Program-made: the position numbers and the translations under genes
Shown here: positions 9,900-11,929 of the stretch, piece by piece
Layout of the letters: every line of letters begins with the position of its first letter
Numbering within the stretch: position 1 is the stretch's first letter
The notes under the pieces: generated by a model
Database searches by the model: none
What the model was told of the DNA's origin: nothing
Seen by the model: the letters and a program-made list of their open reading frames with translations, nothing else
Origin: Candidatus Polarisedimenticolia bacterium
Lineage (GTDB): Bacteria; Acidobacteriota; Polarisedimenticolia; Gp22-AA2; AA152
NCBI GenBank assembly: GCA_035764505.1
Contig: DASTZC010000174.1
Coordinates: 1-53,436, forward strand
DNA length: 53,436 nt
Direction of reading: 5' to 3'

Positions 9900-10709
9900 G
9901 CGCGGGGTTTCACGGAAGGCGAACACCTCCACCTGCACGTCATTACCCATGTTGATCTTGCGGCCCTGGAAGGGTTGCGGCGAATCATTGCCGGCGTGCA
10001 GCGCCCAGCGGAAGCCGGCCCCCGAGAGCAAAGCAAGCAAACGTGGTAGCTCCTGGGGGTCCGAGGCGGCCCCATGGTGCTCGACGAACAGACGATCCAC
10101 GTTTCCCAGCCTCCCCACGCAATCCTCCAGGAGGCGCGTTTCCCCCTGCTCGATGTCGAGCTTGAGAAAGTCGACGCGGCGATCCAGGTAATCGCTCAGC
10201 CGCACGGTGGAGACCGGATTGCCGGCGGGGTCGCCCGGCCGCGCGATCCGGCCGGCGTCGCTGCCTTCGGCATAGAAGGGGAGCGTCGCGGCCTCGATCC
10301 AGAGCGCTTTGGGGACCAGCTCCACGTTGCTCAAGCCCCAGCGGCGGACGTTGCGCTCCAGCACGGCGAAGATCGCCGGGTCGGGCTCGAAGGCCACGAC
10401 GCGGGCGAGCGGGTAGGCCTGCTTGAAGAAGACAACGCTCAGTCCCACGTTGGCGCCGCCGTCCAGGACCAGCGGGTCGGGACGCTCCGCCGGAAAGCGG
10501 TAGATCTGCTGCTCCCAGATCGAGCCGTACATCTCGAGGAAGGTGAGGGCGTCGACGATCTCGAAGGGTTTTCCCAGGAGGCTCGTAACGGTGGGGGTGT
10601 AGCGGGGGAGCCGCTCCAGCCGCCGGATCTCGAGGCGGTGGCGCAGGAAGGCCGGCTCCTTCGCCAGGCGGGCCCAGTGTCCGAGATGTCCTTTCAGCGT
10701 GAGTCTCAA
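9870..10709 (-). CDS. FkbM family SAM-dependent methyltransferase
   Basis: A 279-residue class I methyltransferase. SAM-binding motif I is LVLDGGANVGLSVVFFKQ (about residue 90), followed by VVAFEPDPAIFAVLERNV, and the FkbM hallmark DFLKLDIEQGETRLLEDC comes later. The family O-methylates sugars or polyketides, often in glycan pathways, but the substrate cannot be read from sequence. The start ATG overlaps the stop of the DUF3179 gene by four bases, so translation is coupled to it. Confidence 0.85.
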   Translation of the reverse strand: MRLTLKGHLGHWARLAKEPAFLRHRLEIRRLERLPRYTPTVTSLLGKPFEIVDALTFLEMYGSIWEQQIYRFPAERPDPLVLDGGANVGLSVVFFKQAYPLARVVAFEPDPAIFAVLERNVRRWGLSNVELVPKALWIEAATLPFYAEGSDAGRIARPGDPAGNPVSTVRLSDYLDRRVDFLKLDIEQGETRLLEDCVGRLGNVDRLFVEHHGAASDPQELPRLLALLSGAGFRWALHAGNDSPQPFQGRKINMGNDVQVEVFAFRETPRLKIRTDIPV

Positions 10710-11929
10710 CGGTTGAGGCCTGCCCGATAGACGTCGGTGTCGGGATGATAGGTGTGCCAGTCGAACCAGTAGTCGACCAGTCCCGTTCGGCGCGTCAGGA
10801 GCTTGCCGGCCAGGGGGCCGGAAATCCCGCGGCCCGTCTCGTCCCAGATCGTGCCGGTGGCGGAATCCACCAGCTTGCCTTCCTCCTCCCCGGTGCCTGC
10901 GAAGAACTCCAGGACTTTCCCCTCCACCTCGCGGTCGAAGAGGCGGATCGACTTCGCTCCTTCGAAGGGCACGATCAGGATCGACCGGCCGCCGAAATCA
11001 TCGTTCAACGGCACCCGGTCCGCAAACAGCGCGAAGGGATAGGCGCGGGAGGAGCCGTCGGGTCCCACCACCCCATAGATCAGATCGCGGCTCTGCAGCG
11101 GCTCCGAAGGGGAATGGGGCGTGACCACCGGGAAGCGGGCGACCTCCTCCTCCCAGTTGGCGGGCTCGTAGTGTGGCGCGAATTCGGGATTGGGAGCCAG
11201 GACACGTGTTTCCGGATGCTCGCGCTTCCAGGCGGCGAAGGTGACTTCATCGTGCAGGACGCCGGCGAGCTGTGTCCCTTTCATCGGTCCCTGGATCGCC
11301 TTGCCCGAGACCTGCTGCCACCAGGAGCCGGTGCGCTCGTCCTTCATCAGGAAGTTCTGGTTGTTGATCCCGGAGAGATGGAAATGCAGCGGCTTCCCGT
11401 CCAGTTTGCTCTCCCACACCAGACCGGTGTGGCAGAGCGTTCAATAGGTCACGACCAGGTCGACGCCGCCGACCCGATCGTGCACCAGGTGATGGTAGGC
11501 CATCTGGCGTACCGGATAGGCCGCCGCCTCGCCGTTGAGCGCCACGCCCAGAACGCGGTCGGCCCCGTCGAGGAACCGGGCCTGTTCGGCGGGGACGAAT
11601 CCGGGCCGCGCCAGCGGGTGGAACATCGCCTCGAAATGATTCTGGCGCGCCGCCCAGGCGCCGAGCACCGGCACGATCACGGCCAGGACGATGAGTCCCC
11701 GGCGAAAGATTCCGCGCTTGCGGTTCCAGAGGGCGGCCGCGCCGCCCAGCGCCAGGGCCGCGAGCAGCAGGGTCAGCCAAGGGGACCAGGAGCGCAGCAG
11801 GTAGGAGATCTCGAGATCGCGCGGGCTTTGCCGCCGGAAGGGCTGGATCAGCCAGGCGGGGACGATCACCAGGATCGCGGCCAGCACGGCCGGGAGGAAC
11901 AGCGCGGGCAGCCCAAGGCGACGTGTCAC
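10706..11929 (-). CDS. DUF3179 membrane protein, candidate selenoprotein (in-frame TGA at residue 163)
   Basis: Reading through TGA 11441-11443 gives one 407-residue protein in a single frame. Residues 1-95 contain three TM helices; the rest is a DUF3179 domain (PF11376): DRVLGVALNGEAAAYPVRQM, YHHLVHDRVGGVDLVVTY, then the TGA, then TLCHTGLVWESK, LHFHLSGINNQNFLMKDE and SWWQQVSGKAIQG. The family consensus at the TGA is TYCPLC, so the TGA replaces the first Cys of CxxC and yields U-T-L-C. A SECIS-type hairpin follows at once. The domain should face the periplasm and act in thiol/selenol redox chemistry, function otherwise unknown. A simple nonsense mutation or sequencing error is the alternative. 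Confidence 0.85.
11408..11438 (-). promoter_or_regulatory. Bacterial SECIS element
   Basis: Starting three bases after the UGA, the RNA folds as a lower stem GCUCU/AGAGC, one G/G mismatch, an upper stem CCACACC/GGUGUGG and a GGUCU loop. The loop guanines are at +16 and +17 from the UGA. The E. coli fdhF SECIS has loop AGGUCU at about +18 to +23, which SelB recognises. Every stem base is paired except the single mismatch. Confidence 0.85.

Follow-up and report, generated by a model that had tools for sequence, protein, structure and literature searches.

A candidate DUF3179 selenoprotein with a predicted in-gene SECIS element in Acidobacteriota

The window analysed here is a 53,436-nucleotide stretch of DNA from Candidatus Polarisedimenticolia bacterium (contig DASTZC010000174.1), and the window coordinates given below refer to its minus strand. 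A gene of the DUF3179 family (PF11376) occupies positions 10706-11929, where it begins with a GTG codon and ends with a TGA stop codon at 10706-10708. Open reading frame calling splits this gene into an upstream frame of 162 amino acids (11441-11929) and a downstream frame of 237 amino acids (10706-11419). Translation through the intervening codon confirmed the proposal of an earlier note on this DNA that the two frames share one phase and are parted only by the TGA at 11441-11443. Read with this codon as a residue, the gene encodes a protein of 407 residues that has full-length homologues, and in which the single internal TGA is codon 163 in the context TYUTLCHTG. The corresponding residue is hereafter called Sec163.

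The two halves of the gene belong to one protein domain family. Specifically, the PF11376 profile is matched from position 8 to 64 upstream of the TGA and from position 66 to 292 downstream of it, and thus the recoded residue alone is absent between the halves. The joined protein matches profile positions 8-292 of 292 with an E value of 2e-60 (205.1 bits, compared with a cut-off of 27). The gapless match on either side of the TGA noticed earlier was therefore borne out, and no further lesion was seen in the gene. The next gene downstream encodes an FkbM methyltransferase. A four-base overlap with this gene had also been proposed; the sequence TTGA is indeed present at 10706-10709, and the overlap holds only if the methyltransferase gene starts at its putative TTG codon at 10709.

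In a selenoprotein gene, the in-frame TGA is expected to be shared between species and to align with Cys in homologues. A set of 60 relatives includes eight full-length homologues at 40-60% identity. Every one of them has a single TGA, and it falls in the same column as that of the window gene, TYU[TSV]LCHTG. A sample of 396 genomes from the phylum yielded a close homologue in 31, and the codon in this column is TGA in 21 of them (including the genome of the window) and TGC in the other ten. A separate scan of named genomes added two acidobacterial relatives, an Acidobacteria gp4 MAG and a Pyrinomonadaceae MAG, both with TGA in this column, as well as one distant relative and no more. In total, therefore, 23 genes with TGA and ten with TGC were collected, and the 22 TGA genes other than that of the window share 40-60% identity and all come from Acidobacteriota genomes. 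The TGA thus sits on the first Cys of a CxxC motif, as had been claimed, and the aligned column holds either TGA or Cys, with a conserved TGA rather than random disruptions in close relatives. The TGC orthologues are single uninterrupted ORFs, one of which comes from a one-contig genome. One candidate was rejected in this survey: the only TGA in the gene of genome G369 is not a Sec codon, since this gene has TGC in the Sec column.

On these comparative grounds, coincidence is excluded as the source of the TGA in this column, and comparison of the homologues shows that selection acts on the encoded protein both before and after the UGA. A premature stop caused by sequencing error or by decay of a pseudogene, which the split gene calls and the fragmented draft genome (288 contigs) might suggest, has a negligible probability and is already refuted by the conservation of TGA at this codon in 22 further genes, by the lack of any other lesion, and by the TGC found there where genomes lack selenocysteine machinery.

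The distribution of TGA and TGC follows that of the machinery for selenocysteine insertion. The genome of the window (4.46 Mb) carries the complete set that the earlier note had proposed to look for, with matches to selA (542.9 bits), selB (336.3 bits), selD (366.3 bits) and tRNA-Sec (73.8 bits). ARAGORN also identifies the latter as tRNA-SeC, with anticodon UCA, discriminator base G73 and an encoded CCA end. The selD gene (L044, G000:C274:16176-17102) has an in-frame TGA of its own, in the sequence SGGU near the N terminus, and is itself probably a selenoprotein gene judging from this motif. Of the 31 genomes, all 21 with TGA score above the cut-off for selA, compared with none of the ten with TGC. 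A tRNA-Sec was detected in 20 of the 21 TGA genomes and, again, in none of the ten TGC genomes. The TGA genome in which tRNA-Sec was not detected (G009) is a draft of 470 contigs with a completeness of 88%. Both named TGA genomes likewise contain selA.

A Fisher test of this concordance between codon and machinery gives p = 2e-8, a value that ignores relatedness and is not to be taken at face value. In a tree of the proteins, all ten Cys genes fall into a single clade (support 100/99) nested among the Sec genes, which indicates that Cys took the place of Sec upon loss of the machinery. Because there is a single Cys clade, the data reflect one replacement event and not ten, and the division of 21:0 versus 0:10 does not amount to 31 independent events.

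The same data bear on the idea that UGA is read as cysteine, or is reassigned throughout the genome. Opal-anticodon tRNA-Cys genes of the selC* type exist in some Deltaproteobacteria (PMC7609411), and Cys is the natural alternative residue in this column. However, the tRNA of the window's genome has the serine/Sec discriminator G73 and not U73, and both selA and selD are present. Furthermore, TGA terminates the DUF3179 gene and most long ORFs of the window, and the selA and selB genes are free of internal TGA codons. We consider decoding as cysteine or general reassignment very improbable.

Selenocysteine insertion in bacteria is guided by a SECIS hairpin, and the RNA that follows the UGA is predicted to form one. 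The candidate element (11408-11438) has a lower stem GCUCU/AGAGC and a 7-bp upper stem CCACACC/GGUGUGG, which is closed by the 5-nt apical loop GGUCU (11421-11425). The 50 nt that begin with the TGA have a predicted folding energy of -23.9 kcal/mol (z = -4.08), and none of 200 shuffled sequences was equally stable. A published model of bacterial SECIS elements calls for an apical loop of 3-9 nt, an upper stem of 4-16 bp, a G within the first two loop positions and a minimum free energy of -7.5 kcal/mol or lower (PMC13188914), and the predicted hairpin agrees with this model on all four counts. Most bacterial elements have a distance of 16-37 nt between the UGA and the apical loop (PMC13188914). 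The spacing here is 15 nt by our count, one short of this range, which was published without its counting convention; that of the Escherichia coli fdhF element is 18 nt when counted in the same way.

The fdhF element is otherwise a close parallel. Like the candidate described here, it is an intragenic hairpin located right after the UGA with an apical GGUCU pentamer in the same frame (GGU CUG), and we confirmed it in 5368 E. coli genomes. The genome of the window also resembles the E. coli fdhF/SelB/tRNA-Sec system in having SelA, SelB, SelD and tRNA-Sec. In contrast to the shared loop, the stem sequences of the two elements are unrelated, and the fdhF loop lies 3 nt farther from its UGA. In one family, the loops of three Sec genes are altered (AGGCAUC, GGGCGUA and UGGAAUU), with the G at loop position 2 retained.

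Covariation in the stem is weak, with one clear compensatory change in the upper stem (C-G to U-A, in one of the three genes with altered loops), because the stem sequence hardly varies. For this reason, constraint on synonymous sites was used in its place. In the segment CHTGLVW of 22 Sec genes, His is encoded by CAC in 21, Thr by ACC in 19, Gly by GGT in 19 and Val by GTG in 21. The same four amino acids are encoded by mixed codons elsewhere in the Sec genes, as is the CHTGLVW segment in genes with TGC. When synonymous codons were shuffled, the Sec genes proved to fold more stably than expected (mean z of -1.98, with p < 0.05 in 11 of 22), whereas the Cys genes did not (mean z of +0.50, with p < 0.05 in one of ten). 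The comparison thus shows that synonymous sites of the predicted SECIS element are held constant in genes with TGA and vary freely in those with TGC.

In the encoded protein, three putative membrane-spanning helices (residues 7-27, 36-68 and 74-94; 11648-11911) precede two copies of a beta domain. The first copy (residues 108-245; 11195-11608) bears Sec163, and the second (residues 283-400; 10730-11083) has no Sec/Cys motif. Alignment of the two repeats with hhalign (E = 8e-30) identifies DUF3179 as an internal duplication in which only the first copy carries the motif. The three N-terminal helices and the two beta domains are those of an AlphaFold2 model (pLDDT 93, pTM 0.90), which forms a single compact fold across the Sec site and places Sec163 in a beta-hairpin of the first beta domain. 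A positively charged sequence (NRKRGIFRRG) lies between helices 2 and 3, and by the positive-inside rule the DUF3179 domains are likely to face the periplasm.

Bacterial selenocysteine insertion competes with termination. The UGA could accordingly be viewed as a regulated stop whose main product is a 162-residue membrane stub, with the second half made by read-through or by restarting at the GTG codon at 11419, shortly 3′ of the stop. This arrangement has very little probability given that the halves evolve as one domain family, that the Cys orthologues are uninterrupted single ORFs, and that the model predicts one compact fold across the site. Selenocysteine insertion at UGA 11441-11443 is, by comparison of these genes and genomes, almost certain, and the reading that best explains the data overall is that the DUF3179 gene encodes a selenoprotein (probability roughly 0.93).

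A search by sequence found no solved relative of the protein. When the first repeat alone (pLDDT 96) was compared with known structures using Foldseek, the top matches were almost all of the Rieske fold, with a best E value of 0.03 and no match at E ≤ 0.001. These included the naphthalene dioxygenase ferredoxin (probability 1.00, target TM score 0.61) and PetC3 (2.7 Å over 86 columns, target TM score about 0.6). The predicted fold of a single DUF3179 repeat most resembles that of Rieske (ISP) proteins such as PetC3 (5cxm) and the dioxygenase ferredoxins (2qpz, 5bok). Unlike these proteins, DUF3179 contains the domain twice in tandem and has no cluster motif. The Rieske motif C-x-H...C-x-x-H is absent from the alignment, no match to the Pfam Rieske family (PF00355) was obtained at E values up to 10, and matching profiles of the DUF3179 repeats to those of 20 Rieske domains gave no significant similarity. 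At most, the model would place DUF3179 on a Rieske-like scaffold, and membership of the Rieske proteins is not claimed. Separately, a giant-virus protein with no assigned function (BFVD A0A1V0SD44, Indivirus ILV1) matches the DUF3179 model in structure (E = 1.3e-7).

Several conserved residues accompany Sec163. Cys166 (11432-11434), which may serve as resolving Cys in the U-x-L-C motif, is conserved throughout the subfamily, as is H167, and H146 is near-invariant. The U-x-L-C motif, the conserved His and Thr-Gly that follow it, and an exported domain together fit a selenol-based oxidoreductase. In the reading that we favour, UGA 11441-11443 is decoded as Sec by tRNA-Sec and SelB under the guidance of the predicted SECIS hairpin, which starts shortly 3′ of it and lies inside the gene. 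The three N-terminal helices would anchor the protein, with both DUF3179 beta domains in the periplasm. Sec163 may then act as the attacking selenol in a redox reaction of the thiol/disulfide or peroxide type, and Cys166 may resolve a selenenyl-sulfide intermediate.

Alternatively, Sec and Cys might be ligands of a metal or metalloid, or take part in sulfur or selenium transfer, on the Rieske-like scaffold without redox catalysis. In favour of this view, Rieske iron-sulfur domains are the closest folds among solved structures, and the conserved residues H146 and H167 accompany U163 and C166. However, the Rieske cluster motif is missing, the similarity to Rieske profiles is not significant, and the second Cys is missing in related TWUPLA/V proteins. 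We regard this alternative as unlikely. A redox role for the selenoprotein is probable from its motif and predicted location, on indirect evidence: sequence searches gave no solved relative, shared gene neighbours stop at genus and family level, and the resolving Cys is often missing from a second Sec-containing DUF3179 group. The most likely identity of the protein is a selenol oxidoreductase that is anchored in the membrane and faces the periplasm. We know of no Rieske-like scaffold that uses selenocysteine. The fuller proposal, in which a membrane-anchored periplasmic selenoenzyme has a tandem Rieske-like fold with no Fe-S cluster and a selenol/thiol site in a beta-hairpin loop, is possible but rather doubtful. 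Neighbours of the gene shared within the genus encode an FkbM methyltransferase and ABC-transporter components, and a divergent peptidase gene is shared within the family; a search of the gene neighbourhoods for a functional partner found no neighbour conserved across the subfamily.

The phylum also contains a second, distant group of DUF3179 proteins, in which the TGA of the same column lies in the sequence TWUPL[A/V/C] and the second Cys is often lacking. In eight loci of this group (L020, L022, L023, L024, L025, L030, L032 and L033), the hairpin after the TGA is differently placed. At four other loci (L028, L031, L037 and L038), Asn or Ser replaces the first Cys, as in TYNPLS and TYSPLS, so that each of the two motif positions is occupied by Asn or Ser. 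CxxC is thus not a defining feature of PF11376. Together with the frequent loss of the second Cys, these members indicate that DUF3179 holds different chemistries or non-catalytic members.

DUF3179 with a UxxC/T motif is already catalogued as a predicted prokaryotic selenoprotein in reviews (PMC9312934, PMC13188914), which credit it to the work of Zhang and Gladyshev (2007) on an Olavius algarvensis symbiont. The motif of the window protein (U-T-L-C) and that of its subfamily (U-[TSV]-L-C) fit the known one, and the two sets share the Pfam family, Sec as the first residue of U-x-x-C, and the existence of Cys homologues. Compared with the family as listed in those reviews, the acidobacterial group differs in its phylum, its three N-terminal membrane helices and its TYU[TSV]LCHTG sequence. 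An incomplete literature search found no report of the acidobacterial subfamily, its SECIS or the Rieske-like fold, and NCBIfam has no model for the protein. What is new here is the acidobacterial subfamily with three N-terminal helices, its SECIS, the concordance of Sec or Cys with the machinery, and a confident structural model (pLDDT 93). Novelty is limited by the earlier prediction of selenoprotein status, for which the comparative evidence from these genes is much stronger.

Throughout this group, automated annotation splits the gene or calls it a pseudogene, and reading the Sec codon would restore one full-length membrane protein in many genomes. The nested exchange of Sec for Cys, accompanied by the disappearance of the machinery and by relaxed constraint on the SECIS element, provides a clean natural experiment. 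Furthermore, the Cys orthologues, as single ORFs, may serve as an easily expressed surrogate for work on DUF3179 function.
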